Below are positions 4,923 through 25,781 of a DNA stretch of 30,910 nt, piece after piece. The DNA is taken from IMG/VR virus record IMGVR_UViG_3300028840_000038, positions 1 through 30,910 of that record; one strand, given 5' to 3'. Below the pieces are notes generated by a model. That model was given only the letters and a program-made list of their open reading frames with translations, had not been told where the DNA came from and did no database searches. Position 1 is the first letter of the stretch, and each line of letters opens with the position of its first letter. The DNA comes from a virus. The position numbers were made by a program, and so were the translations under genes.

Positions 4923-6761
4923 ATGTCTACTGACACTAAAACAGTTAAATACGAGTTTCGTCCGGGTATCACTCGTGAAACCACTCCCTATGCTGCAGAA
5001 GGTGGTTGGTTTGACGGTAATCGTGTTCGTTTTAGAGATGGTAAGCCGCAGAATATTAGAGGCTGGCAAAAAAGAAATACCAGTACTTTTATAGGGACTG
5101 CTCGTGAAATAACAACTTGGTCAAGTTTAGACTCAGTTAAATATGTAGCACTTGGAACTCAGCATAAAGCTTATTTAGAGACAGGTGGTACTTTTTATGA
5201 TATTACTCCTATTGTAAGCACTGTTTCTGTAAGTGCTTGTTTTAACACAAGCGCAGGAAGTTTTGATGTTATTGTTAGTTTAACAGCGCATAACATTCAA
5301 CAAGACAGTTATATTGAAATTGAAAATGCTACTACGGTTGGTGGTAATGTTTATTTAGAAGGCGACTATCAAGTAAGTGTTGTAGACATTAATTCTTTTC
5401 AAATTACATATGTTTCCGCTGCTGCTGAAACATCTGCTAGTGCAGGAAATGCTACAATTAATTACAGACTTCCTTCTGGTGGATCAAATTCAACAGGTGG
5501 TTCAGGTTATAATGCTGGAACATATGGTGGTCTTGATGCGGGTGTAAGTGTTCGTGCTTGGAACGTTCCAGCTACTACAACAAATATTGAAATTGATCTT
5601 CGTAAGTGGACGTTTGCACCTTTTGGTGAAGACCTCCTGATTAATGATTATCCTGAAGGCAAAATATATAGATGGGATGAAAGTAATGGAACAGGTGTAG
5701 AAGCTGTTCTCATCAGTGCTGCACCTACCGTTTCAAATGGAGTTATTGTAAGTCCTATTGATAGACACGTTCTTTCTTTAGGCTCTACCGATCTTACTGG
5801 AACATTTGATCCTCTTTTAGTTCGTTGGTCTGCACAAGAAAACTATGATGATTGGACACCCTCAGTAGGAAATACTTCTGGTGATGTGCGACTAGCTAAT
5901 GGTTCTGAAATTCGCTGCGCTATCAATTATAGTAATCAGATATTAATCTGGACTGATAAATCTCTTCACGGAATGCAGTTTGTAGGTTCTCCTCTTGTCT
6001 TTTCTAGTACACAGCTTGGAGATAACTGTGGAATTATTTCAAGAACAGCAGCAGCAGAACTAGATGGTAGAGCTTTTTGGATGGGAGAAGGTAACTTCTT
6101 CATGTATGCTGGTCAGGTAAACATCCTACCGTGTACTGTCCGATCATTTATATTTGATGATTTTAACTTTGATCAAAAAGAAAAAGTATTTGCTGGTGTA
6201 AACTCTGAGTTTGAAGAAGTTACTTGGTTGTATCCTTCTGCTGAATCTGAAGAATGTAATAGATATGTTTCGTTTAGTCCTTCTCAAAACTACTGGACTT
6301 ACGGTGAATCTATCTGGACGGTGTGGGAAGATGCAAACGTATTTGATAATGTATTAACAGCAGGTGTTTCTGTTTCAATAGGAGAAACTCCTCCTAATTA
6401 TGCTTATCTTTATAATAATGAACCTAATGGCGTATATACTGCAGATGGTGCTCTGTTAACCTCATTCGTTGAAAGCGGCGAATTTGATATCGGTGACGGA
6501 GACGATATAATGTATATAGATAGAATTATTCCTGACTTCGTTGTTTCTGTCGGTACTTTGGATGTAAGTCTAATTACTAAAACACATCCAAGCTCAGAGG
6601 AAATAACGAAGGGGCCGTTTGTTGTAAACAATACTACTACTCAGCTAAGACCAAGAGCACGGGGGCGAACAGCTAAACTAAGAATAGCTACGTCTACGGC
6701 TCAAACTAAATGGAAATTTGGAACAGTCAGAATGGATATGATGGCTGATGGTAAAAGATAG
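4923..6761 (+). CDS. Tail nozzle-like protein (tail tubular protein B/stabilisation type)
   Basis: 612 aa. The opening (EFRPGITRETTPYAAEGGW, then FDGNRVRFRDGKPQNIRGWQ) is the characteristic start of podovirus nozzle/stabilisation proteins: a short helix-free arm, then G-R-V-R-F-R-x-G-x-P-x-x-I-x-G-W. The body is beta-propeller-like, with repeated W/G-rich blades (RWDESNGTG, RWSAQENYDDWTPS, FWMGEGNFFMYAG). This matches the distal tail-tube proteins of T7 gp12 and P22 gp10 type, which close the DNA channel. Length is near the family norm (T7 gp12 is about 790 aa, P22 gp10 about 470 aa). No Shine-Dalgarno is visible before the ATG. It is flanked by fibre-like genes. Confidence 0.7.
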   Translation: MSTDTKTVKYEFRPGITRETTPYAAEGGWFDGNRVRFRDGKPQNIRGWQKRNTSTFIGTAREITTWSSLDSVKYVALGTQHKAYLETGGTFYDITPIVSTVSVSACFNTSAGSFDVIVSLTAHNIQQDSYIEIENATTVGGNVYLEGDYQVSVVDINSFQITYVSAAAETSASAGNATINYRLPSGGSNSTGGSGYNAGTYGGLDAGVSVRAWNVPATTTNIEIDLRKWTFAPFGEDLLINDYPEGKIYRWDESNGTGVEAVLISAAPTVSNGVIVSPIDRHVLSLGSTDLTGTFDPLLVRWSAQENYDDWTPSVGNTSGDVRLANGSEIRCAINYSNQILIWTDKSLHGMQFVGSPLVFSSTQLGDNCGIISRTAAAELDGRAFWMGEGNFFMYAGQVNILPCTVRSFIFDDFNFDQKEKVFAGVNSEFEEVTWLYPSAESEECNRYVSFSPSQNYWTYGESIWTVWEDANVFDNVLTAGVSVSIGETPPNYAYLYNNEPNGVYTADGALLTSFVESGEFDIGDGDDIMYIDRIIPDFVVSVGTLDVSLITKTHPSSEEITKGPFVVNNTTTQLRPRARGRTAKLRIATSTAQTKWKFGTVRMDMMADGKR

Positions 6762-8368: not shown

Positions 8369-8809
8369 ATGCACAAAATAGTTAAGCTCGGCGCTGATAT
8401 ACTGAACTATAATCCAGTATTAGAAATAGATGAAGTAGATAAATTATTAGATAAAGTTATTCCTTATACTGGTGAAAGATATAATAAAGAGGATATAAAA
8501 GAAGCCTTACATGCAGATCAGATGCAGCTTTGGTTAGCGTTTGATGCGGTAAATGAAAAGATAGATGGACTAGTAGTTTCTCACTTTTGTAACTATCCAC
8601 GTAAAAAAGTTCTTACTCTTCTTTTATGTTCAGGAAAAAATTTAGATAGTTGGTATGATCCAATGTTATCTGATTTAGAAAAGTTTGCGGTTCTCAATAA
8701 ATGTTCTACTATTGAAACTGGCGGACGAAAAGGTTGGATTAAAAGAATGAAAAAAGATAATTATCATCAAAAGTTTTATTTGGTAGAAAAAGAGGTTTCT
8801 CATGGGTAA
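8369..8809 (+). CDS. GNAT-like protein within the virion gene block
   Basis: 146 aa starting 1 nt after the previous stop. It shows an alternating pattern typical of small acetyltransferase-like phage proteins: MQLWLAFDAVNEKIDGLVVS (two strands around a turn), KKVLTLLLCSG (the central strand), a helix DPMLSDLEKFAVLNKCSTIE, and then ETGGRKGWIKRMKKDNYHQK with a final strand FYLVEKEV. Related proteins sit at the T7 gp13 position, before the internal virion genes, in many podoviruses. The acetyl-CoA loop is not a clear R/Q-x-x-G-x-G/A, so catalysis is uncertain and the fold may serve structurally. The last 8 nt overlap the next gene. Confidence 0.55.
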   Translation: MHKIVKLGADILNYNPVLEIDEVDKLLDKVIPYTGERYNKEDIKEALHADQMQLWLAFDAVNEKIDGLVVSHFCNYPRKKVLTLLLCSGKNLDSWYDPMLSDLEKFAVLNKCSTIETGGRKGWIKRMKKDNYHQKFYLVEKEVSHG

Positions 8810-11198
8810 GAAAGGAGGATCGCCACCCCCGGCACCAGCATCGACTCAGGTAGTTAGAAGCGAGATTCCTGAATTTTTCAGGCCATTTCTTGAGGATATC
8901 TTTAGACGTTCTTCGGCTATTTCTGAAGAAGCATATATTCCACCGCCTGAAAGAGCACGTTTACAGGAAGTAGGAGAGGAAACTATTGCTCCTATTGATC
9001 CTGCCCAGCAAGCAGCTTTAGATCGTTTAAAATCAACGGAGATGGCTGAGACAGGTGTGTCTGCTGTTCGTGCTGGACAGGGGCTTACTTTATCAGGTGC
9101 TGAAAGAGTTGGCGGAGAAGAAATAAGAGAAGCGATGAATCCGTTTCAGCAAGCTGTTACGGACATTGCTGTACGAGAAGAGCTACGACGAGCAGCGCCG
9201 CAACGACAGGCGCTTCAGGCACAGGCAGCAAGGGCTGGTGCTTTTGGTGGTTCGCGTGGCGCTCTTCTTGAAGCAGAGTTTGAACGCAATCTTGGACAGC
9301 GTCTTGCTGATATTCAAACCACTGGAGGTGCTGCGGCCTTTGATCGTGCTACTCAGCGTCTTGAACAAGAACGTCAAAGGCAGATAGCCGGAGGTCAGGC
9401 TTTAGCTGGCCTTGGAGCACAAGAGGCAAATGTTCTTTCTGCTGGTATTGGTCGTCAGCTAGCCGCTGGTGAAGCGCAGCGTGGTCTTCAGACTGAAGCT
9501 ATTACTCGTGGTCTTGAAGAGTTTCAGCGTGAAGTTGATTATCCAAAACAACAGATTGGTTTTTATTCTGGTATTCTTCGTGGATATCAGCCGCCTATGA
9601 ATACGTATCAGACGGTATCTACTCCCTTTAGTCCTACTCAACAGATACTTGGACAGGCTGCAGCGGCAGGTGCTATCGGTAAAGGCTTCGGCTTGTTTAA
9701 TGATGGCGGTATTGTAGGTCTTGCCTTTGGCGGTGCTCCGTCTCAGCAGTACACAGAAAATGTGGGAGACGATAAGGGACTAAGCAGCATGGTTGGTAAT
9801 CCTGTTGCTTCGTATGCTAATGGTGGCGTTGGAAGATATCAAAGTGATGCTGCTAGGAGAAGGGCTGCTCTTCGAAATATAGGTTTAACGCCTAGAGAGC
9901 AGGAAGTTTTTGCACTAGATGCTGATCCTCTTTCTGAAATGGAACAAGATGTTTTAAGGCCAAAAATAACAGAGGATATCAGAGAATATCTAACGGCTCC
10001 ATCTGTATCTTTTTCACCAGAAGCTGATCCTCTTTCTGAAATGGAAGCATATGCAGATTATGGTCTTCCTAAAATAAACATTCCTTTATCTAATCCAGAA
10101 GCTTCAAGAGAAGAAAGAATTGCATTAGAAAAAAGAGTTAAAGGTGTTGTTAATCAAAGAGTAGAAGATTTACTAAGAGTTTCTGCTGAACAGGGCAGAC
10201 CTTTGACTATGAAACAAGCTCAAGCACAGGCCATTGAAGATGTTTATGGTGGCGAAAGGCTTGGATCAGAAATTGCTGATCGTGCAGGAAAAACAGGCAA
10301 TCAGCTTATAGCAACAGGTCAAGTGCTAGCTCAAGAAAGTAACATAGCTCGCGAAGAGTTAGAAGCTGAAAATAAAGCTGCTAGAGCAAAAAAAGTAGCT
10401 GAACTAGCAAAAAAATATGAAGATCAAGGATTTGATCCCGGATCAGCTATTCAGGCTGCTCAAGCTGAAGTTTCTACTGATACAACGCCAACTCGTGGAC
10501 AAATATCAAAAAGAATAGGTACTGGTCAACCGGGAGTTGCTCCTACTAGAGGAACAGGTACTGGTTCTAAACCAACAGCAGTAGAAGAAGGTCCGCTTCT
10601 TGCTGATGATGAAGTAGTTGGTGGATTTAATAGGCTACCTATTGAAGAAGCTAAACCTGCTGCCGCTGATGCTCCTGCTGCTGCTGCAGAACCTAAGAAA
10701 GCAGAAGACCTTACTGATTGGTTTGGTCTAGCTGCTGCTGCGTTGGCTGCTGGAACAGGGCGTGAAGAAGGTTTGACTAACGCTGCTACATTGTTGTCTA
10801 AGGTTAAACGACCTGAAGATATTGCACTTGATAGAGCACAGAAACGTTATATAGATGTTAAAGGACAATCAGACCTTATTGACTCAATAGCATCTACAGG
10901 TAAAAACGCTCTTGAAAAAAGAAAATTTGCATTAGAGCTTGCAAAATTTAGAAATACTCTTTTGAAAGATGATAGAGAAGCAGCTTTAAATATGTATAAA
11001 GAGATGGACGTACCATTAAAAATGGCTTTGAATGCTAAACTGCTAGCTGGTAAAAATATAGATGAACTTACTCAAGACGAGATTATCAACACTTTTAAAG
11101 AAAACATTTCTAAATTTAGCCCTAGAGCAGCGGCTGGCGGTGTGATGCCAGATGATCTAAAAGATAGATACGGTATAACGAGCATTCAAAGGATTTAA
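8802..11198 (+). CDS. Large internal virion (ejection-type) protein
   Basis: 798 aa, starting at an ATG that overlaps the previous stop by 8 nt. The N-terminus is GKKGGSPPPAPAST, followed by IPEFFRPFLEDIFRRSSA. Residues ~60-280 are long, Ala/Gln/Arg-rich helices (REELRRAAPQRQALQAQAAR, then ARAGAFGGSRGALLEAEFER) with coiled-coil character, as in podovirus ejection proteins. A Gly-rich hinge (LFNDGGIVGLAFGGAP) follows. Residues 374-381 and 408-415 are identical (ADPLSEME). After a charged middle region, a low-complexity Pro/Ala linker (PAAADAPAAAAEPKKAED) separates a C-terminal helical domain (LTDWFGLAAAALAAGTGREE onward). The role is inferred: packaging inside the capsid and entry with the DNA. 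No enzymatic motif is recognised. Confidence 0.6.
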   Translation: MGKKGGSPPPAPASTQVVRSEIPEFFRPFLEDIFRRSSAISEEAYIPPPERARLQEVGEETIAPIDPAQQAALDRLKSTEMAETGVSAVRAGQGLTLSGAERVGGEEIREAMNPFQQAVTDIAVREELRRAAPQRQALQAQAARAGAFGGSRGALLEAEFERNLGQRLADIQTTGGAAAFDRATQRLEQERQRQIAGGQALAGLGAQEANVLSAGIGRQLAAGEAQRGLQTEAITRGLEEFQREVDYPKQQIGFYSGILRGYQPPMNTYQTVSTPFSPTQQILGQAAAAGAIGKGFGLFNDGGIVGLAFGGAPSQQYTENVGDDKGLSSMVGNPVASYANGGVGRYQSDAARRRAALRNIGLTPREQEVFALDADPLSEMEQDVLRPKITEDIREYLTAPSVSFSPEADPLSEMEAYADYGLPKINIPLSNPEASREERIALEKRVKGVVNQRVEDLLRVSAEQGRPLTMKQAQAQAIEDVYGGERLGSEIADRAGKTGNQLIATGQVLAQESNIAREELEAENKAARAKKVAELAKKYEDQGFDPGSAIQAAQAEVSTDTTPTRGQISKRIGTGQPGVAPTRGTGTGSKPTAVEEGPLLADDEVVGGFNRLPIEEAKPAAADAPAAAAEPKKAEDLTDWFGLAAAALAAGTGREEGLTNAATLLSKVKRPEDIALDRAQKRYIDVKGQSDLIDSIASTGKNALEKRKFALELAKFRNTLLKDDREAALNMYKEMDVPLKMALNAKLLAGKNIDELTQDEIINTFKENISKFSPRAAAGGVMPDDLKDRYGITSIQRI
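9921..10046 (+). repeat. Exact 24-nt direct repeat pair inside the 798-aa gene
   Basis: The 24-nt sequence starting GCTGATCCTCTTTCTG occurs at 9921-9944 and again, without change, at 10023-10046, 102 nt (34 codons) apart. Both copies are in frame and encode ADPLSEME. The intervening codons are not repeated. Confidence 0.85.
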
Positions 11199-11201
11199 AG
11201 A

Positions 11202-14200
11202 ATGCCGACACTTGTTCAGTTACAGGGGTTAGGCGAGCTAGAGATACCTGATGAGTACAATACTCAACAGATTCAAGATGCTATTGCTTTAGCTAATCTA
11301 CAAGACCCTGCTTTTCAGGCTATAGATCAAGAGCTAATAGGCATTAATAATCTCTTGTCTGAAATGGAAAGAGGTGGACTTACTCCTCCTAAGTTTACTC
11401 CTGCCTCTCAAGAAGCTGCACAGGTTAGTGATCAAGATCGTACTTATCTAGGTGAGATACTTGCTGGACTGCGGTCTGGAGCACAGTTTGCTGTTGGCTC
11501 TGGATTGTCTGGTATTGAGCGCATTGCAGAACGTGTTGGCTTAGACCCTACTGGAGATGAAGAAGGTTGGGTTAGTCAAGCCGGTGATGCACTGAAGCGT
11601 GGCGCTCAAGAGATACAGGCGTCTGAAGACAAAGAAACTCTCTTTAAATTTTCCAATGCTTTTGGTTCTATTCTAGGCTTTGCTGCACCTGCAGTGATAG
11701 CGGCTCCAATTAGTGGTGGAGCTTCTCTTGGTTTTGCTGCATCTCTTGCTGCCGGTTCTGGTGCAGATGAAGCTTTTGAACGTGCAAAAGAAGCTGGTGC
11801 CAGTGACGAACAGCTTACTCAAGCTACATTGTTTGGCGCTGGTGTTGGCCTAACTGAAGTGCTTGCTCCTATCAAAGCAATCAATCGTATTAAAAAGATA
11901 TACGGTGGTAAGACAGCACTTACAAATACTTTGGAAAGCACAGTTCGCAACATAGGAACAAAGCAAGCACAGCGTGGAGACTTGGCAGCTAACTTAGGTA
12001 TTTCAGATAAACCGTTTAAAGACTTTGGAGTTCGTATAGCAAAGACTGCTGGACTTGAAGGTTCTCAAGAAGCGGTAGCTGCTATAGCTCAAAATGCTAT
12101 TGAAAAATATGTTTATAATCCAGACAGAGAACTTCTTGATCCTGCAATCATGGAAGAAGGTCTGTATGGTGGTGCCGCTGGTGGTACTCTTGCAGGTATT
12201 ATTGAAAGCTTCGGGCTTCGTAAAGCGCGTCGTGTTCGTAAAAAGTTTGATGAGTACACGAAGTCTGATGAATATACCAATATACAAAAGCAGGTAGAAG
12301 CAGACGTTACAACTTTAGAACAGGCTGAAGCAGCGCAAGCTCAAGCCTTGGCTGAAGGTAATCAGCAACTAGCAGATCAGTATCAAACAGTCATAAACGA
12401 TGCTACTGCGCGTGTTCAGAGAGCTAATGAACTTGTAACAACGTCAGTCATGGAAAATGTCTATGGCGGTCCTGAAGTTCTAGCTTATCTGATGGATCAA
12501 AAGCTGGAAGATGGTACTCCCATGTACGATCAGAACCAGCTAAACAAGATGACAAGCTCAGAACTGTCTGAAGTTTATGAACGTCATGTAAGAAATCCAG
12601 CAACTAAATATGAACGTGATGCTCGTGATCTTCTTAGTTTCACTATAAATCCTGATACAGGTAAAGAGTTTACCTTTGAAGAGATAGAGACTATTTACGA
12701 CAAAGAAGGTCCGCAGGGTGTTGGTCAACTTGGTGCATTTATTGAAGAAGTTAATGTTCAAGAGTCAGAAGGAAAAGCTTCTCGCGGTGAAGTTGATGAA
12801 CGTATTCGACTAAGGACAGGCTATCAGTTTGGTGAAGCAAACCAGAATGAAGCAGTCAATGTAGTAGAAAATGATCCTTCACTAGACGCTAATCAAAGAC
12901 TGCAAGTACGTTATAATCTTTTGTCTTCTATTAGAGAAGCTCGAAAGGCGGGTGTCTCTAACGCACGTATCATGAAAGCTATTCGTGAGCGTAATACTGC
13001 TTTTGCTAATGAGGCAGTAAATAACGTTAGAAAGCTAATACCCAAAGAAGAAGTTACAGTAGAAGCAGCACCTGAAAAAGGTCCGGTACAAGGACCACCT
13101 GCTGAACCTCCTCAGGTACAAGGCCCACCTGCTGAGCCTCTTCCGGTACAGGGTCCACCTGCTACACCTCCTCCGGTACAGGGTCCACCCACTGCAGAAC
13201 CTGTTGCAGCATCTGATGCAGCACAAGAAGTAACACCTCCTGCCACTGGAACGACTACTGAAGGTGCACCTAATGCAGCAGCACAGCAAACTATTAGAGA
13301 TATCAAAAAAGACTTTGCTAGAATTGTTGGTGTGTTTGGATCATCTAAGGAAGATTCTCAAGATTTTGTAAATGCAATAAACGATTTTGTAAGGCCAAAC
13401 GGTACTGTAAATGTTGCAGCATTAGCAAATTCTGGTGTGTTAGTTGATTCTGATGGATCAAACTTGTTAAGCGGTTATTCAAGGGCAAGATCTACACCTT
13501 ACGCCAAAGAATTTGAAAACTTTCTAGATGCTTATGCAAAAGGAGAAGTTGGTCAGTATCTTGGAGATGGTAACATTCAAGATGTAACGTCTTTTGAGAA
13601 TGTTATGATTACAGATCAGAAGGCAGCTACAGATGGCGTTATTGATAGTGCTGCTATACAAGGATTAAAAAACGCTATTCTAAGAATGGTAGGACCAATA
13701 AGAGCGGATCGTGCAGAAGAGATAGCTATCTACATAGGTCAAGAAGCTAATAGGCATCTAGCTAGAAATAGTTTAGGCGCTGCTACTATTAGATTTAATA
13801 AAAAAGGTGAACAGCCTTTTGTAAAAACTCCATATGGTTATGTAGAAGTCGGTGGAGATTTTGATGGTCGTCAAGGTGTTCCAACAAGAATAGCTATTCA
13901 GACGACAAGGCTTCCTACTAGCGAACACGGTTTTCCTGAAAGCTTTAATGATTATTCAAGGCTTCTTGGTGTTACTTATCATGAAGCGTTTCATGCTGGT
14001 AAGCGTTTAGTTCTTACTCAGGATGATCAGGCATTGCTCGACAGAGTTATCACGCCTGAGTTTGCTATGAAAAACGGAGTATCAAAAGAGTGGTTTGACG
14101 CCTATCCTCCAGAGCAGCGTTTGGAAGAGGCACAGGCTCAAATCTTTTCTCTGTGGGCAGCGGGTGTTCCAATCAAAGGAATGCAAGCTCCGGTTAGAAA

Positions 14201-17200
14201 GCGGCTCAAAACACTGAAAGATTTCTTTGATGCAGTGTCTAGCTGGGCGCGGGGCAATGGTTTCATTACGCAGATAGCTGATCCAGATGTTACATCAGAG
14301 ATTGAACAGGTTAAAAAACTCTTTGAAGACTTTGATAGTGGTGAGCTAGCAAGACAAGCAGGACGTTTAGACGATCAGGCTGCTGCCAAGTACGCAGGTG
14401 TAAATGCTGCGCCTAACTATGAAGCATTGGTAGGTGCTCCTATCAAGAGAACTCCGGGCTTCGGTGGCGTTGCTAATCCATTTAAAGATGGGTTCTTTAA
14501 CAACTCCTTGCGTGATCTTGGTTTCATGGGTCGTCTTATTTCTCATCCCTCTGATCTAGCGCAGAAGAATCCACTGTTTCGTGCTTTCTATAACACGCTG
14601 CAGAAACGTGTACAGATACGTAACATTATTAAAGGCGCATCAGTTAAGATAGGTGCAGAACCTTTACGTGCTCTTAATCGTGATCAACGACAGCTAACAT
14701 CTGTAATGGTTCAGCTTTCTAACAACGGTGAAGTTGAGCCAACGATAGACATCGAAAGCGGAACTGTTGAAGTTTCTATACCGAAAGCAAGATATGAAGA
14801 AATAGAAACTGAATATGGAACAGAGAATAGATTTTTGTCTATGCTTGGCCTTGATCCGTCAACAGTTTCAATACAGAAAACAGAAGAAGGGGTTACGTTT
14901 ACCCTGTCAGGTCAGCCTGAAGTTGCTAATGCTGTAGCTGGTGTACGTTCTACCAGTAATTTTCTTAGTAATAATTTATTTACTTCGATCCTTCACTCTT
15001 TTATAAACGGCAGAGAACTAAGCGAGTCTGGTCTTTCTGATATTATTCGAACTGTAGATGACGCTGGACAACCTGCTGATTACAACAATGTAATTGCTGA
15101 TCTTCGAAAGTTTTTAGATGTAGATAATAATCCATTCTTAGAAAGAGTTACAGAAGATGGAATTACTACAATACGTCTAACAGATGCTTTTAAAAATGCT
15201 TCGCTAGAAGAAAAGAAAGCCGCCTTTCCCGGTTTGAAAGAAGAATATTTAAATAGAGGAGACGTTGATCAAAAGCTTGGTGAAGCTCTTCTTCTTATTC
15301 AACAGTTACAGCAAAGCAGAAAAGAAGGTTATTTTCCTAACTATCGTTACGGCGACACAGGTATTGTTGTAAAAGATAAAGATGGCAAAGTTTTATACTT
15401 TGAAACTGTTCCTTCTACTTTCTTAGATCGATTTGGCTCAAGAAAACAGGATAGGCTAAACGAAATTCGTTCAGAACTACAGGCTCAGTATCCGGGCATG
15501 ACTGTAAGTGCTCCGTTTAAAATTGAATATGATGAGAATAAGAAAACATTTAGAGGATTGAAACCAGAAGAACAGGCTGCGCTTCTTGAGTCCTTAAACA
15601 TTCTTGAAGAAATAGCTTTGAGAAAAGCAGGAACTACTTCAGAAGATGCTGGTAAGCTTATAGATGAAATTGCTTCTGGTCTTTTTGCAAAGCGTATTAA
15701 TAGATTGATACAGCCACGGCAGAATATTCCGGGTTACATCAATTCAAGAAATAACGATGGTGCTTATCTTCTTGATTCTTTTGTCAGGTCTATCGATACT
15801 ACAGCAAACACTGCCTCTTCTTTGTTTACAGAGCCTGAACTTTTTGGAAGCTTGACTAACCTAGAAGCTGCTAGAGGTACTCAACCTAAATATCATGATA
15901 GAGCTAAAGAAATATATGATTATGTAAATAATCCAAGAAACGAAGCTCCAATGGCTCGTGCCTTTGCTTTCCATATGTTCCTTGGCTTCAATGTTTCATC
16001 TGCTCTAGTCAACCTGACGCAGACTTTCCAAGCTACCTATCCTGTTCTGGGTGCTATTACCGGATTGGGCAGCGGCGGTGTGTATGTTGCGAAAGCTCTA
16101 AAAGATTCCTCTGCTTTGTACGGCAAGATGCTCGGATCAAAAGACAAACCTTCAGTAGGTGAGTACGGGTTCTCGTTCTTTAAAACTGAGACGGCTCCTG
16201 ATGGTACGGTCAGCGTCGAAGTAGACATGGATAAAAAACCAAACTCTGTTACAGAAGAAGAATACAGATATCTGGCAGAGCTATTTAGAACTGGTGTTAT
16301 TCAGCCGATTCAGAACATTGACTTGGGCGCTGCTCGTCTTCAAGAGCTAGATGTCAGGCGTGGCGTTGCTCCTGTGCTTAACGCTTCTGGTTATGCTTTT
16401 GGTGTTGTTGAAAACACTAACCGTATTGCAGCGGCTCTCGCTTTCTATCGTGCTGCTAAAGACCCCAAGAACCGTAAGAACTTTGAAGCATTCGTAAGTG
16501 GTACTCGCTTTGGTGATCAGGATGTCTCTCGGTTAGACACTGAAGACTTTGCTAAACTGATGGGAACAATGGGTGTCGAAAAGACACAGTTCTTCATGGG
16601 CCAAGAGAACCGTCCTGCTATTATGCAGGGTCCGGTTATGAGTGTTGTAACTCAGTTTCAAAGCTTCCTGTATCAGATGGTTGGAATGTACGGTGACGCG
16701 CTATTCAAGTCTTTGAATGGGCGTATGGATACTATTCCAGAGGCTCTTCGCCCTGCCGCACGTAAGATAGCTATGAAGCAGCTAGCAGCCATGACGCTCT
16801 CTATGATGGCGTTTGGCGGTGCTATGGGTCTTCCGTTCATGGAAAATCTAAAAGAGATTATCAAGTTCTTTACGGAACAGTTTGGTGATCAGGTTGGGGA
16901 AGACTTTGAAGAAGAGCTTCGCGTAACTCTTGGCGACACGATGGGATACACGGCAACTGATGCGCTTCTTCGCGGTATTCCCAGAATGCTGGGTGCGGAC
17001 GTATCGCGTCGTACTGGTTACGGTGATGTCGTGCCGCTACGCCTGTTGATGGGTGGTGATCCTGTTGACTTTGCTGGTCCTGCAGTTTCTCGTGCAGTAG
17101 ACATGGTCAAAGGAACTAAGGAAGCTTACGATAATAACGATCTTCTCGGCGCTGCCGTTGGTGTGATGCCTATCGCTGCACGTAACGCTTATGATGCTCT

Positions 17201-17687
17201 AGTAAAAGAACCATCAGTAGGTACGTTTACGGCAAGAGGACAGCAGCTACTACCTGCAGGTTCTCTGTCTGGCACAGAACGTCTTATGAAAACATTTGGA
17301 TTTACACCTACTCTTGTGTCTCGTGCTAGAGAACGGCGTGGACTTGAGAACTATCTGTCTTATCGTTCCAAGATAGGCAAAGATGTCTATACAAATAGAA
17401 TGTCTAAAAATCTGGGTGCTTATCTAGCAGCCGCTCAAAGGGGAGATGGTGACTCAGCCGCTAACTTCCTAGCTAAATATTACACAGACTTTCTGCATAC
17501 CATGCAGCATGACTTTGATAATATTATGGAGCCTTCTCGTCAGTACAGAATTAATCCGCAGACGCCGATGAACCGAGTACTGAGAGGAATGGAACCATTT
17601 GGCTACGGTGCCGGACCCCGTGTTCCGAAAGCAGTACGTCCTGAACTGTTTATGCGTGTTCTCGGAGACGCTACATACAACGAATAA
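11202..17687 (+). CDS. Giant internal virion/polyvalent-type protein with HEAFH zincin motif
   Basis: 2161 aa, the largest gene here. Residues ~154-190 (FGSILGFAAPAVIAAPISGG, then ASLGFAASLAAGSGADEAF) are hydrophobic. Residues 628-667 are four decapeptide repeats of PVQGPPAEPP type. Residues 927-931 are HEAFH, followed by EEAQAQIF at 975-982, which could supply the third zinc ligand, so this looks like a gluzincin-type metalloprotease domain. Just after it come W/F-rich helices (LKTLKDFFDAVSSWARGNGF) of the kind that trail zincin domains in large polyvalent phage proteins. The last ~500 residues hold a mostly helical domain (MARAFAFHMFLGFNVSSALV onward) and a Met-rich amphipathic stretch near ALRPAARKIAMKQLAAMTLS. 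Position and size suggest a protein packaged in the capsid and ejected with the genome; cell-wall or membrane passage is inferred. T7 gp16, the nearest functional analogue, has about 1318 aa. Confidence 0.65.
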   Translation: MPTLVQLQGLGELEIPDEYNTQQIQDAIALANLQDPAFQAIDQELIGINNLLSEMERGGLTPPKFTPASQEAAQVSDQDRTYLGEILAGLRSGAQFAVGSGLSGIERIAERVGLDPTGDEEGWVSQAGDALKRGAQEIQASEDKETLFKFSNAFGSILGFAAPAVIAAPISGGASLGFAASLAAGSGADEAFERAKEAGASDEQLTQATLFGAGVGLTEVLAPIKAINRIKKIYGGKTALTNTLESTVRNIGTKQAQRGDLAANLGISDKPFKDFGVRIAKTAGLEGSQEAVAAIAQNAIEKYVYNPDRELLDPAIMEEGLYGGAAGGTLAGIIESFGLRKARRVRKKFDEYTKSDEYTNIQKQVEADVTTLEQAEAAQAQALAEGNQQLADQYQTVINDATARVQRANELVTTSVMENVYGGPEVLAYLMDQKLEDGTPMYDQNQLNKMTSSELSEVYERHVRNPATKYERDARDLLSFTINPDTGKEFTFEEIETIYDKEGPQGVGQLGAFIEEVNVQESEGKASRGEVDERIRLRTGYQFGEANQNEAVNVVENDPSLDANQRLQVRYNLLSSIREARKAGVSNARIMKAIRERNTAFANEAVNNVRKLIPKEEVTVEAAPEKGPVQGPPAEPPQVQGPPAEPLPVQGPPATPPPVQGPPTAEPVAASDAAQEVTPPATGTTTEGAPNAAAQQTIRDIKKDFARIVGVFGSSKEDSQDFVNAINDFVRPNGTVNVAALANSGVLVDSDGSNLLSGYSRARSTPYAKEFENFLDAYAKGEVGQYLGDGNIQDVTSFENVMITDQKAATDGVIDSAAIQGLKNAILRMVGPIRADRAEEIAIYIGQEANRHLARNSLGAATIRFNKKGEQPFVKTPYGYVEVGGDFDGRQGVPTRIAIQTTRLPTSEHGFPESFNDYSRLLGVTYHEAFHAGKRLVLTQDDQALLDRVITPEFAMKNGVSKEWFDAYPPEQRLEEAQAQIFSLWAAGVPIKGMQAPVRKRLKTLKDFFDAVSSWARGNGFITQIADPDVTSEIEQVKKLFEDFDSGELARQAGRLDDQAAAKYAGVNAAPNYEALVGAPIKRTPGFGGVANPFKDGFFNNSLRDLGFMGRLISHPSDLAQKNPLFRAFYNTLQKRVQIRNIIKGASVKIGAEPLRALNRDQRQLTSVMVQLSNNGEVEPTIDIESGTVEVSIPKARYEEIETEYGTENRFLSMLGLDPSTVSIQKTEEGVTFTLSGQPEVANAVAGVRSTSNFLSNNLFTSILHSFINGRELSESGLSDIIRTVDDAGQPADYNNVIADLRKFLDVDNNPFLERVTEDGITTIRLTDAFKNASLEEKKAAFPGLKEEYLNRGDVDQKLGEALLLIQQLQQSRKEGYFPNYRYGDTGIVVKDKDGKVLYFETVPSTFLDRFGSRKQDRLNEIRSELQAQYPGMTVSAPFKIEYDENKKTFRGLKPEEQAALLESLNILEEIALRKAGTTSEDAGKLIDEIASGLFAKRINRLIQPRQNIPGYINSRNNDGAYLLDSFVRSIDTTANTASSLFTEPELFGSLTNLEAARGTQPKYHDRAKEIYDYVNNPRNEAPMARAFAFHMFLGFNVSSALVNLTQTFQATYPVLGAITGLGSGGVYVAKALKDSSALYGKMLGSKDKPSVGEYGFSFFKTETAPDGTVSVEVDMDKKPNSVTEEEYRYLAELFRTGVIQPIQNIDLGAARLQELDVRRGVAPVLNASGYAFGVVENTNRIAAALAFYRAAKDPKNRKNFEAFVSGTRFGDQDVSRLDTEDFAKLMGTMGVEKTQFFMGQENRPAIMQGPVMSVVTQFQSFLYQMVGMYGDALFKSLNGRMDTIPEALRPAARKIAMKQLAAMTLSMMAFGGAMGLPFMENLKEIIKFFTEQFGDQVGEDFEEELRVTLGDTMGYTATDALLRGIPRMLGADVSRRTGYGDVVPLRLLMGGDPVDFAGPAVSRAVDMVKGTKEAYDNNDLLGAAVGVMPIAARNAYDALVKEPSVGTFTARGQQLLPAGSLSGTERLMKTFGFTPTLVSRARERRGLENYLSYRSKIGKDVYTNRMSKNLGAYLAAAQRGDGDSAANFLAKYYTDFLHTMQHDFDNIMEPSRQYRINPQTPMNRVLRGMEPFGYGAGPRVPKAVRPELFMRVLGDATYNE
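13083..13202 (+). repeat. Four tandem 30-nt units encoding PVQGPPAEPP-type decapeptides
   Basis: Units at 13083-13112, 13113-13142, 13143-13172 and 13173-13202 follow one another without spacers and stay in frame. They encode a Pro-rich linker at residues 628-667 of the giant protein, between an N-terminal helical part and the zincin-bearing part. The copies differ at several positions. Confidence 0.85.
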
Positions 17688-18552: not shown

Positions 18553-20841
18553 ATGACATCGAAAAAAGTTACTATTGTTTCTAGCTTTCACGTAAAAGAT
18601 TGGGAAGTCTACGCTAAGAATTTTGTTGAAAGTTTTATAGACAAATGGGAAAGCACTATCGATCTTCGGCTTTACTATCATAATGGAGAACTGCCTGAAG
18701 ACGCTCCTGATGCGCCAAACGTTTCTTACTTTTCCTTAGACAGTGATGAAGACCTCACCACGTTTAAGAACGACAATGCTGAGTACAATGGTAAAGAACC
18801 TAACGGTGGCTACAACTACCGCATGGACGTGATAAAGTTTTGTCACAAGGTTTTTGCTATTACAAACTCAGCCAATATAGATGGTTATCTCGTATGGCTA
18901 GATGCAGATACTGTATCAAAAAATCACATGAGTTGGTCAGACATCGTAAACTTTGCTGCACCCAACGAAGAAGCAGAAGTTGTACATCTGGGCCGCACTG
19001 CTATCGATTACAGTGAAACTTCTTTTCTGTCTTTCAATCTAAACTCTACTCGTACTCTTGAGTTTTTATCTGACTTTCGTGGAATGTATACGAGCCATGA
19101 AGTGTTTGGGTACAGAGAGTGGCACGATGGCTTTGTCTTTACGCGCTTGTTGAACATTCATGAAGAGCACGGCTTGAATGTGTACAACATGTCGCCTGAT
19201 TGCACCGATCTAAATGCTTTTGCTACCAGTGAACTCGGTAAGTTTTTGGAGCACAAAAAGGGTAATCTAAAATATAACAAACAAGATCAAGCAAATCAGA
19301 TACCTGCGATGCCAGTGGGTCCGCAGCGATATGCTTATATTAATTCTCTTGTTGCTTTTTATGAAAGAAAAAATCTTCTTGAAGTAGGAACGTGGAATGG
19401 TGATAGAGCTATACAAATGGCATCTGCAGCGTTCGCTAAATCGGATGTTGTTCACTACACTGGTTTTGATCTGTTTGATTATGCCACAGAAGAAACGGAT
19501 AAAGCGGAACTTAATACGAAAGCGCATCATACTAAAAAACAAGTTGAAGAAAAGCTAACTGAGTTTGCTAAAAAGGTAAAAGAAGATGGCAAGACTTTTA
19601 CTTTTTGTCTGTATGCAGGAGACTCGAAAGAAACTCTAAAGCTGATACACGATAAAGACTTTAGAAATACTCACAACATTCATCCTGATTTTGCTTATAT
19701 CGATGGTGGTCACAGCATTCAGACGTGCTCTTCAGACTATGAGATGTTGAAGCATATTCCGTTCGTGATCATTGATGACTACTTTACTGCTGACGAAGAA
19801 GGTAAAGAAGTTGATCCAGAAATGTGCGGAACAAATCACGTATATGACAATCTAATAGATGACTCTGCACGAAAGAAAATTCTGACATCAAATGATAGAG
19901 TTCTGGGCGGCGGTATCACTAATCTTGTAGCTGTTCTTCATACTGACAAGCTGCCTGATCTTCCTGAGATGACGCTTGCTCCTGTACAGAACCGTACTCC
20001 TATCAAGGTAACTCCTCACGACTCAATGCCTGATGAGTATATTCAGGAGAGCATTACGGCTAATAAAAATAAAATGAATAGATGGATCAAGCAAGCGGGT
20101 GCTCCTAACAACGAGCATATGTGTATTGTTTCTGGTGGTCCCTCTCTTAAAAAGAATATAGATAAGTTAAAACAGATAGTGGCTGAAAAGCGTTCTAAGG
20201 TGGTCTGTGTTAAGCACTCTCTTCCGGTGCTGGTCAAAGAGGGTATCATCCCTTGGGGGTGCATTGTGCTCGATCCTAGACCGATTGACGGGGTATCTAC
20301 GCACGGCGTAAAGAGGCGTGATCTCTTCAAGGATATTCCTGAAAAGACAAAGTTCTTTGTTGCGTCGATGACAGATGTTAGTGCTGTTGATTACATTCTA
20401 AGCAAGACTGACAATGTGTATGGATGGGATGCGTTCTCTCAGGCTATTCAGGATTGGCCGCTTCTCAGAGATACAATGCTGATTGCAGGTGGAACCTGTG
20501 CAGCTACCAGAGCTATCGGCTTGTTTCATGTTCTTGGTTTTCGTAACTTTGATCTGTTTGGCTTTGATGCCTGTATTGAGGGAGAGCCTGAAGACAAAGA
20601 AGAACTTCTCGAAAGCGGAAGCCCTAAGTGGATTAAGGTTGGTATTGGAGAAGAGGAAGAAAAGTTCTGGGTTACAGGTGAGCTACTAGCGATGGCTCAA
20701 GATATGGAACAAATGCTTGATAATAAATCAGTGGACATGACGCTGAACATGCATTGTGGTGGTTTGGTAAACGCTATATGGAAAGACCGAGTCTCTAATG
20801 GCTACATTAAACCTCATTACACGGAGATACTGAATGTCTGA
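18553..20841 (+). CDS. Triple-domain protein: GT-A-like, SAM methyltransferase-like, MptE/DUF115-like
   Basis: 762 aa. The first part (~1-240) looks like a GT-A fold: TIVSSFHVKDWEVYAKNFVE, a strand YLVWLDADTVS with DAD at 117-119, and EVFGYREWHDGFVFTRLLN. The second (~255-450) is a class I methyltransferase: NLLEVGTWNGDRAIQMASAA with the SAM-binding G279-x-x-x-G283, the acidic FDLFDYATEE strand, DFAYIDGGHSI with D384-G-G-H, and VIIDDYF. The third (~515-762) starts MCIVSGGPSLKKNIDKLKQI, with GGPSL at 528-532, then VVCVKHSLPVLVKEGIIPWG, and later MLIAGGTCAATRAIGLFHVL and LFGFDACIEGE. This is the pattern of DUF115/6-hydroxymethylpterin pyrophosphokinase MptE-like proteins, which include flagellin-associated Maf glycosyltransferases. 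It probably builds or attaches a modified sugar; the order of steps and the substrate are unknown. The gene ends with an 8-nt overlap into the next. Confidence 0.7.
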   Translation: MTSKKVTIVSSFHVKDWEVYAKNFVESFIDKWESTIDLRLYYHNGELPEDAPDAPNVSYFSLDSDEDLTTFKNDNAEYNGKEPNGGYNYRMDVIKFCHKVFAITNSANIDGYLVWLDADTVSKNHMSWSDIVNFAAPNEEAEVVHLGRTAIDYSETSFLSFNLNSTRTLEFLSDFRGMYTSHEVFGYREWHDGFVFTRLLNIHEEHGLNVYNMSPDCTDLNAFATSELGKFLEHKKGNLKYNKQDQANQIPAMPVGPQRYAYINSLVAFYERKNLLEVGTWNGDRAIQMASAAFAKSDVVHYTGFDLFDYATEETDKAELNTKAHHTKKQVEEKLTEFAKKVKEDGKTFTFCLYAGDSKETLKLIHDKDFRNTHNIHPDFAYIDGGHSIQTCSSDYEMLKHIPFVIIDDYFTADEEGKEVDPEMCGTNHVYDNLIDDSARKKILTSNDRVLGGGITNLVAVLHTDKLPDLPEMTLAPVQNRTPIKVTPHDSMPDEYIQESITANKNKMNRWIKQAGAPNNEHMCIVSGGPSLKKNIDKLKQIVAEKRSKVVCVKHSLPVLVKEGIIPWGCIVLDPRPIDGVSTHGVKRRDLFKDIPEKTKFFVASMTDVSAVDYILSKTDNVYGWDAFSQAIQDWPLLRDTMLIAGGTCAATRAIGLFHVLGFRNFDLFGFDACIEGEPEDKEELLESGSPKWIKVGIGEEEEKFWVTGELLAMAQDMEQMLDNKSVDMTLNMHCGGLVNAIWKDRVSNGYIKPHYTEILNV

Positions 20842-22768: not shown

Positions 22769-23017
22769 ATGTATATCAAGTATTTTTCCACACTGCCTTA
22801 CGACTATCCGTCTTACCCTGAAGCCCTCATGAAAAAGTATGAGAATACTTATAAAGTTTCAGAGAAGGTTATGAATAAGTATAAAGAAGCAGCGATAGAG
22901 CAGAAGCTAGAAACTATAAAATTTCAGCGCGATGCTCTTGATGAAGAGATTGTAAAGTTAGAAATGCAGCTATATGATATTACCGAAAAGCAGGACCATA
23001 AGCCCACAGAGCAATAG
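22769..23017 (+). CDS. Small coiled-coil protein at the end of the + strand genes
   Basis: 82 aa from the ATG at 22769, chosen because AAAGAGG lies 5 nt upstream; an in-frame ATG at 22748 would give 89 aa but has a weaker site. The N-terminus is Tyr/Pro-rich (MYIKYFSTLPYDYPSYPEAL). The remainder is one charged helix (KVMNKYKEAAIEQKLETIKF, then QRDALDEEIVKLEMQLYDIT) of coiled-coil type. No family recognised. The last 38 nt overlap, tail to tail, the oxygenase gene on the other strand. A terminator follows 44 nt after its stop. Confidence 0.6.
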   Translation: MYIKYFSTLPYDYPSYPEALMKKYENTYKVSEKVMNKYKEAAIEQKLETIKFQRDALDEEIVKLEMQLYDITEKQDHKPTEQ

Positions 23018-23543
23018 AATGCTTTTCGTTATATAAAACAGGCTTCACACGGTGCCAAAGAAAAGAGGGGAAGACAACAATGCTTCCCTTCTTTTTTAAT
23101 TCAGGGCAATCAATAACACGTTTGTGATAAGACTTAGAAGGCTTGCCCCAGCTAAACTGAAACTCACCCCCTTCGTAATTATCATTTAAAGAGACGACCA
23201 GCGAAAGCTTTCTAACTTTAGCAGGATCAAATGAGTTCTCTATATCCATGTGCCAGCCGTAGTGACCAGTCTCGTAGTACGTAGAGAACTGCATAACTTC
23301 TGCTGAGTGTATGTCAAAATTCCAACCAGCCTCTTTATTGGCAAGAATAATACACTTGTAAAATACTTCAGTAAGTTCTGGATTATTTATCCAAGCTACT
23401 CTGCTATTTCTGACAGTTGTGTTTACAGTGTCTTGATCTATAAAACCATACTCATGATTTATTTCTTTACCAAGTCGAACAAGGTTATCACAAAACTCGT
23501 CCGACAGAGCACTCTCACTTTTCCAAACTTCTTGAATATGCAT
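22980..23543 (-). CDS. 2OG-Fe(II) oxygenase, prolyl-hydroxylase-like
   Basis: 187 aa. The double-stranded beta-helix iron site is seen as HYGWHMD with H98 and D100, and FLWHRVKPV with H164. The 2-oxoglutarate-binding basic residue would be near K174 (NEKHSIALWAYGP), where many P4H-like enzymes carry Arg. Other family marks are MQFSTYYETGHYGWH, KLSLVVSLNDNYEGGEFQFS (the L-V-x-L-N-x-x-Y-x-G-G-E-F strand) and KKGSIVVFPSFLWHRV. Such enzymes hydroxylate proteins, nucleobases or small molecules; the substrate here is unknown. The gene is last in the - strand operon. Its ATG overlaps the DUF1289 gene by 29 nt, and its 3' end overlaps the + strand coiled-coil gene. A strong + strand terminator is encoded within it. 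Confidence 0.8.
   Translation of the reverse strand: MHIQEVWKSESALSDEFCDNLVRLGKEINHEYGFIDQDTVNTTVRNSRVAWINNPELTEVFYKCIILANKEAGWNFDIHSAEVMQFSTYYETGHYGWHMDIENSFDPAKVRKLSLVVSLNDNYEGGEFQFSWGKPSKSYHKRVIDCPELKKKGSIVVFPSFLWHRVKPVLYNEKHSIALWAYGPAFR
23061..23097 (+). terminator. Rho-independent terminator of the + strand late transcript
   Basis: The arms 23061-23073 and 23083-23095 pair over 13 bp (one G-U), with core GGGAAG/CTTCCC, a 9-nt loop (ACAACAATG) and a run of six T at 23092-23097. It lies 44 nt after the last + strand gene and inside the coding sequence of the opposing oxygenase gene. On the - strand the hairpin is followed by CTCTTTTCTTT, a poorer U-tract. Confidence 0.75.
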
Positions 23544-24097: not shown

Positions 24098-25135
24098 TTA
24101 TACTCCGCAGCTTCCGCCGTGTCCAGTAATGTCGCATATGTCATGCGTCTCGACACTCTCTTCAAACTCTTCACCCAACTTATCTACGGCCTCAGAGTAT
24201 GGAACGGATGTTAAGGGTTGCCCGCCCCTACAACCGTCTGGATATACTGTGAAACCACGTAAGCGGTGAGCATAAGAAGCAAGAGTTTCAGCAAAACTAT
24301 CGATGGTATCTTCATTGTTAAGCTTAGTTCCCCACTTAGGAAGATTAATAGTACTGCTGATAGACATATCGACATAGTCTTGAACGTCAGCTTGGAACTT
24401 CATACGACGCTTATAGTCTTCTGCCAGATCAAGAGCGGACTCAATCTTATCAGGAGCAACACCATAAAGATCAATGATCTCCTGCGCTGCACTGTCTACC
24501 ACATACTGATAGTGCCAGCGATTGCCACCTTTCAGATACCTGCGCTTGTAAGCTACGGCAAAGATAGGCTCAACGCCTGTAGAAGTGCCAGCCAGAATAC
24601 CTATTGAGCCGGTAGGAGCAATGGCACGATTAGCGACAGGGCGACTACACCCAAGAGTATCAGCAAAGCTGGAGCTAACGTGATCACTAACTCCTTTGTA
24701 TACTGATAGCCACTTATGAAGTCCATCCGTAACTTCATACTTTTCTCCTGCCTTGATTAACCACTCGTGCATACCCATCAGACCAAGGCCAAGTCTACGA
24801 TTCTTCTGTCTAGTCTCGTATACCTTATCATAGGGAAGCTTGGCTCTAAGAGTGCCGCATAGTAGAAACTTAGTAGCAAGCTCTATGCAGTCAGCGAAAT
24901 CTTTTAGGTCATCAATACGTCCCATATTAATAGACCCAAGATTGCACACGTCACTATCATCTTCAGATGTAACCTCCGTACAAGCATTCCGTAACGTCTC
25001 ATTTTCCTTCTCGAAGAAAGAAAGAGAACCCCGGTTCTGCGGTAGATAAGGCTTGTCTAACATTCTGCTTAAAAGTATTCCCAACATCACCCGTCTTCCA
25101 GTAGTTAAGAAGCCATTCAGTATCATAGTTGACAC
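24098..25135 (-). CDS. Class II ribonucleotide reductase, C-terminal part (frameshifted)
   Basis: 345-codon frame; only about residue 40 onward (from FFEKENETLRNACTEV, near position 25015) is RNR, and the first ~40 codons are an out-of-frame copy of the upstream part. The frame holds LRNACTEV, the N-x-C-x-E active-site motif with the radical cysteine, then DVCNLGSINMGRI (second redox cysteine), AIAPTGSIGILAGTSTGVEP, and PIFAVAYKRRY. It ends in DGCRGGQPLTSVPYSE and a cysteine tail GGSCGV. These are class II (adenosylcobalamin-type) NrdJ marks. Joined to the N-terminal frame it makes a normal-length protein of about 559 aa. On its own this fragment is unlikely to work. RNR makes dNTPs for phage replication. 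No NrdB-like gene is seen in the window, which also suits class II. Confidence 0.75.
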   Translation of the reverse strand: MSTMILNGFLTTGRRVMLGILLSRMLDKPYLPQNRGSLSFFEKENETLRNACTEVTSEDDSDVCNLGSINMGRIDDLKDFADCIELATKFLLCGTLRAKLPYDKVYETRQKNRRLGLGLMGMHEWLIKAGEKYEVTDGLHKWLSVYKGVSDHVSSSFADTLGCSRPVANRAIAPTGSIGILAGTSTGVEPIFAVAYKRRYLKGGNRWHYQYVVDSAAQEIIDLYGVAPDKIESALDLAEDYKRRMKFQADVQDYVDMSISSTINLPKWGTKLNNEDTIDSFAETLASYAHRLRGFTVYPDGCRGGQPLTSVPYSEAVDKLGEEFEESVETHDICDITGHGGSCGV

Positions 25136-25781
25136 TGATGTTTGTCATATCAAGAGGAGCAATAAAGTTAAAGTCCTGTTCTTTAACCTGACCAATGCTG
25201 AAACCTGTATCTCCTACCGGCATGTCGTACCAGTTCTTGCTGGTAAGAAACTTATCTACATCAGGATGCTTCCAGTTTAAGCTAGCATAGATAGCAGACC
25301 TACGACTACCACCCTGCATAACTCTGCGACCAATCTCGTTGATCATCTGCATCTTTGGAATAGGACCAGACGCTAGTCCACCTGTGCCGTTCAGTATGCG
25401 CCCTTCTTCACGATAGACAGAGTAGTCGATACCAATACCGCCGCCTGTCATGAGGCACGACTCAGACTTCCAAGAGATGTTGGCCCAATCTTCTCTGGTA
25501 TCTTCCTCTGCACGTAGCAGATAACAGTTATTAAAGAACTTATTTTCACGTCCAGCATAATAAAGATAACGACCACCCGGAATAAACTTCAGGTCGGTGA
25601 TCATACGTTTCAATTCATCTTTATCATCCTTGGACAGATGCTCCTGACACACGTCATCAACAAGAGTTGATGCCAGTGCATCCCAAGTCTCACAACCATG
25701 ATGAGCATATTTATGTTTGAAGATATCTTCGCTGAATTTTGAGCGAAACATGGGGTTCTCATTGCTACGAAACGTAGCCAT
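24999..25781 (-). CDS. Class II ribonucleotide reductase, N-terminal part (frameshifted)
   Basis: 260 aa with AAGGAG 7 nt before the ATG at 25781. It contains IPGGRYLYYAGRE, NNCYLLRAEED with C86 (first redox cysteine of the active-site pair), SCLMTGGGIGIDYSVYREEG (substrate-binding glycine loop), GTGGLASGPIPKMQMINEIG and QGGSRRSAIYASLNWKHPDV, all in the class II order. After AEPGFSFF at 248-255 the frame goes LREGK and stops, while the other frame continues the family sequence. The radical cysteine lies beyond the break, so this product alone cannot be active. The break falls at two adjacent GAAA copies (25016-25023, TTTC on the coding strand). Removing one copy restores the frame exactly. 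An assembly error, a true mutation, or recoding are all possible. Confidence 0.8.
   Translation of the reverse strand: MATFRSNENPMFRSKFSEDIFKHKYAHHGCETWDALASTLVDDVCQEHLSKDDKDELKRMITDLKFIPGGRYLYYAGRENKFFNNCYLLRAEEDTREDWANISWKSESCLMTGGGIGIDYSVYREEGRILNGTGGLASGPIPKMQMINEIGRRVMQGGSRRSAIYASLNWKHPDVDKFLTSKNWYDMPVGDTGFSIGQVKEQDFNFIAPLDMTNISVNYDTEWLLNYWKTGDVGNTFKQNVRQALSTAEPGFSFFLREGK

Follow-up and report, generated by a model that had tools for sequence, protein, structure and literature searches.

In phages T7 and P22, the ejection protein gp16 is encoded by the final gene of a three-gene module, which is also the largest of the three. Among the polyvalent proteins of phages, zincin-like metallopeptidases are the commonest domain (Iyer et al. 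2017, PMC5512222), and the idea of a zincin within a polyvalent protein is therefore already known. The zincin fold is described as a three-stranded sheet, a helix with the HExxH motif and a helix with a Glu (PMC5512222). The virion RNA polymerase (vRNAP) of phage N4, gp50, has an N-terminal part thought to be membrane-spanning, a low-complexity linker of ~100 aa, an HExxH domain and a C-terminal region of ~1100 aa (PMC12633501), and the giant proteins of F116-like phages have been described as structural (PMC5217972). Here, we analyse a gene for a 2161-aa protein of comparable layout in a 30,910-nt viral sequence (IMG/VR record IMGVR_UViG_3300028840_000038; hereafter, 'the window').

The giant gene closes an ejection-type module

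The 2161-aa protein is encoded on the plus strand by an open reading frame whose boundaries, 11202–17687, are exact; AAAGGA lies 8 nt 5′ of its ATG, and the frame is intact in the two full-length relatives that we found in IMG/VR, L002 (63% identity) and L003 (91%). It is the last gene of a module of three on the same strand. The first (8369–8809) encodes a 146-aa protein with a weak match (6e-5) to a similarly placed 137-aa protein of Vibrio phage ABTNL-3, and the second (8802–11198) encodes a 798-aa ejection-type protein that matches phrog_4287, 'DNA ejection protein' (E 1.3e-6), and, through its N-terminal part, proteins of phages HTVC023P and DSL-LC04 (4e-14 and 5e-11, respectively). Further upstream, at 4923–6761 (+), is a virion structural protein, called 'stabilization protein' in its relatives (phrog_3287, E 1e-70; 35% identity to DSL-LC04), such that the giant gene sits among late, virion-type genes. 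The DNA polymerase of the window is nearest to those of the pelagiphages HTVC103P and HTVC104P (44%), and the source is probably a marine-type, podovirus-like phage.

Several other genes of the window were noted in passing. Downstream of the giant gene, at 18553–20841 (+), is a 762-aa protein in which a Methyltransf_24 domain is fused to an MptE-like domain; in L002 and L003, too, the giant gene is followed by an ORF of about this length. A 2OG-Fe(II) oxygenase-like gene (phrog_61) lies at 22980–23543 (−). The ribonucleotide reductase large subunit, at 24098–25781 (−), is broken into overlapping ORFs of 345 and 260 aa, whereas L003 has a single ORF of 561 aa; alignment shows a 2-nt deletion near position 25019 of the window, indicating either a frameshift or an assembly error.

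Conservation is uneven along the protein

The whole architecture of the giant protein is common only to L002 and L003, together with a fragment, L001. Identity to L002 is 80% in the C-terminal domain described below and 76% between the HExxH motif and the downstream EE, but falls to 57% in the N-terminal region, 31% just before the zincin-like domain and 17% in the linker. The N-terminal region (aa 1–600; 11202–13001) had been described as hydrophobic from the sequence alone, and does contain a hydrophobic segment, at aa 153–171. Residues ~148–251 match the N-terminal part of another giant protein, L153 (21 bits, E 1.3e-6), which also carries both of the domains considered below; no match to the N-terminal region was found in an isolate phage. 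The proline-rich linker proposed in the initial annotation is real: it spans aa ~617–672 (13050–13217), has low complexity with VQGPPAEP-type repeats, and is encoded by a 30-bp tandem repeat of 3.6 copies at 13082–13189. It is also the fastest-evolving part of the protein, with a dN/dS of ~0.6–0.7 against L002, although this value is merely indicative because synonymous sites are saturated. In L002 and L003 the linkers are of a PEAEP type.

A zincin-like domain and its conserved downstream glutamate

A zincin-like domain occupies aa ~861–1056 (13782–14369). Its HEAFH motif, which the initial annotation had placed at aa 927–931 (13980–13994), is the only HExxH in the protein and is retained as HEGFH in L002 and HEAFH in L003; H927 and H931 are the predicted zinc ligands and E928 the predicted general base. 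The pair of glutamates at aa 975–976 (14124–14129) had been suggested to supply a third ligand, and the choice can now be narrowed. In an alignment of 76 phage domains (the window, L002, L003 and 73 others), E976 is present in 75 and E975 in 69, which makes E976 the likelier ligand; A979 and F982 are each present in 73. The resulting consensus, HExxH ... EExxA(D/E)xF, is the arrangement that would be expected of a zincin with its third ligand in the following helix. The window protein departs from it in having Q980 where D or E usually follows the conserved alanine, but, like L002 and L003, it retains each of H927, E928, H931 and E976.

The DNA pattern for YHEAFHA occurs in at least 119 stretches of viral contigs, mostly within very large ORFs, so zincins of this type are widespread in giant phage proteins, and no Pfam or PHROG family matches them consistently. 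As the search was made with YHEAFHA, conservation of that stretch is given in advance, and the evidence here lies in the downstream motif alone. One of these giant ORFs (L011:1-5037; at least 1678 aa) has a YHEAFH zincin followed by an ADP-ribosyltransferase-like stretch (GVYFAED), and lies before tail-fibre-like genes.

A profile built without the window family scored the window zincin at 27.7 bits, compared with 11–16 for shuffled sequences with a planted motif. A second profile, made from zincins found through the C-terminal domain plus that of L011, with the window excluded, scored it at 36.6 bits (maximum of 200 planted-motif shuffles, 5.6), and still at 17.0 bits when the window motif was masked (maximum of 200 plain shuffles, 2.3). 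We conclude that the sequence homology of the domain extends beyond the HExxH motif and survives masking of the motif. No entry in Pfam, PHROG, NCBIfam or PDB matched the domain itself, no solved zincin matched above noise (Zmp1/PPEP, E 0.15–0.3), and a scan for close relatives found none in bacterial genomes. A Pro-Pro endopeptidase cutting the PP-rich linker was considered and rejected, given the noise-level PDB matches and the PEAEP-type linkers of L002 and L003.

That HEAFH arose by chance in a structural, helical protein is very improbable: although the domain itself lacks a Pfam, PHROG or PDB match, HExxH arises in only 0.3% of shuffles, the motif is kept in a relative at 63% identity, homology persists with the motif masked, and E976 is conserved.

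The C-terminal region is a tail-700 domain shared with other giant proteins

The long C-terminal region noted initially proved to be conserved. Residues 1376–2048 (15327–17345) match the tail-700, or PLxRFG, C-terminal domain NF032893 of NCBIfam at 205.7 bits, against a curated cut-off of 100, and also phrog_11358 and phrog_10089; the PLxRFG motif expected where the domain starts is degenerate in the window (YFPNYRYG). By tblastn, this region is found at ~25% identity in 57 phage records, including F116, H66 and Vibrio ABTNL-3, and a profile search of viral contigs returned at least 493 relatives. Giant proteins with tail-700 carry LPD1/3/5/39, ART-PolyVal, SNF2, Eco57I methylase, InPase, MuF_C, PBECR1 and cell-wall hydrolase domains, and RNase domains also occur among them; these giants are polyvalent proteins as Iyer et al. 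(PMC5512222) use the term.

Unlike most of the tail-700 giants scanned, the window protein has no other recognisable enzyme: Pfam and NCBIfam scans recognised no second enzymatic or LPD domain, and domain scans found no cell-wall enzyme. The zincin is therefore the only candidate activity. By its sequence, the protein falls within an already described class of large phage proteins with several domains, and the 'polyvalent-style' label that it had been given finds support in kinship through tail-700; it would be a compact polyvalent-type protein, in that the class calls for at least two disparate activities and the window protein shows one predicted enzyme plus tail-700, whereas its relatives carry many.

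Zincins and tail-700 occur together

Of 28 non-redundant ORFs with tail-700, 17 have an HExxH 300–900 aa upstream of that domain, where 0.27 would be expected, and several tail-700 giants lack any HExxH. The zincin profile matches four giants that were found through their C-terminal domain (L159, L179, L153 and L151; 62 to 38 bits), and, conversely, L041, found through the zincin motif, carries tail-700. The co-occurrence of the two domains was thus reached independently from either direction.

N4-type zincins from eight schitoviruses were combined into a profile, which matches a region before tail-700 in four further giants (L174, L212, L227 and L225) at 37 to 21 bits; planted-motif controls, run for L174, L227 and L225, reached at most 6.3. 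A direct match between the window zincin and the N4-type zincin was absent among the scored best matches. That homologues of the N4 zincin occupy the equivalent position ahead of tail-700 in these giants points to a common zincin-helical chassis, the cargo of which can be exchanged. We tentatively propose, as a possibility on the less probable side, that zincin plus tail-700 serves phages generally as a chassis by which giant proteins leave the head, and corresponds to the C1-C2 part of N4 vRNAP, with a cargo that varies (RNA polymerase, helicase-methylase, ART or RNase) and is nearly missing in the window protein. If so, the 2161-aa protein would reveal what the bare chassis does. A link between tail-700 and N4 C2 is reported from earlier work in PMC5217972; in our hands, homology between the two was not significant by profile comparison, nor by way of RIO-1 gp37.

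A proposed role for the giant protein at DNA entry

The initial annotation placed the protein in the capsid. That placement is supported by analogy and gene position: the annotation of the tail-700 relative in Pseudomonas phage H66 states that mass spectrometry verified it as a virion component, and the window gene is the last of its module. We consider a virion location probable on these grounds. The reading that we favour, with moderate confidence, is that the podovirus-like phage packages the giant protein inside its virion and ejects it, and that the zincin cleaves a protein at about the time of entry or shortly afterwards. The 2161-aa protein would be packaged in the head and leave with the DNA; tail-700 would be the conserved part for packaging and delivery, and the hydrophobic N-terminal part and flexible linker may aid passage or membrane association. 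The zincin-like domain would act as a working metallopeptidase, with a component of the ejection machinery, a protein of the host or the 2161-aa protein itself as candidate targets. That the domain serves only to release a cargo enzyme is disfavoured, since the protein appears to contain no other enzyme.

Self-cleavage might instead be the function of the domain, which would cut the giant protein while heads are assembled or once it has entered the cell; such an autoprotease has been proposed for P1 DdrB. DdrB is processed before packaging and its zincin has been proposed as the agent (Iyer et al. 2017, PMC5512222), and the window zincin lies between two separable halves and adjoins a flexible linker. 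However, identity to L002 is lowest in the linker and just ahead of the zincin, where no conserved cut site can therefore be seen; the protein has no second enzyme to release; and both N4 vRNAP and ArdC travel uncut (PMC5512222). We regard an autoprotease as possible, but doubtful.

Alternatively, the zinc site might be kept for folding or packaging, in which case the domain would not be a working protease and the giant would be a structural ejection protein. N4 vRNAP is packaged unprocessed even though its zincin-containing region is needed for packaging (PMC5512222), and both the tail-700 giants without HExxH and the Q980 of the window protein could be read in the same way. Zinc binding alone, however, would not need E928, which is kept with H927, H931 and E976 in all three proteins, and we judge this explanation unlikely.

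Many giant virion proteins keep a protease-like domain, and the 2161-aa protein has a zincin with almost nothing else. This compact architecture means that the role of the conserved zincin, whether in self-processing, against another target or as an aid to packaging, is testable through E928.

Comparison with described giant and ejection proteins

The window protein resembles the polyvalent proteins (PMC5512222) in being a giant encoded near late genes, in its HExxH zincin-like domain with a downstream Glu, and in a C-terminal domain that it has in common with giants bearing LPD, ART, SNF2, methylase and RNase domains; it differs in having no recognised second enzymatic or LPD domain, since combined activities are what defines the class. 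With the NF032893 proteins of F116, H66, Skulduggery and Vibrio ABTNL-3 it shares the VNLTQ and NR motifs, but it has PNYRYG in place of PLxRFG and is shorter than most. It is likened to T7 gp16 and P22 gp16 by gene position, as the last and largest of a three-gene ejection-type module, although a transglycosylase domain was not found in it. Searches of Pfam, NCBIfam and PDB found no single-subunit RNA polymerase domain, so it is not an N4-type vRNAP, and its zincin is of another subtype. The layout nevertheless resembles that of N4 gp50, with an N-terminal part, a low-complexity linker, an HExxH domain and a long C-terminal region, and the HExxH lies at a similar distance from the C-terminus in both: 1272 aa in N4 vRNAP and 1234 aa in the window protein.
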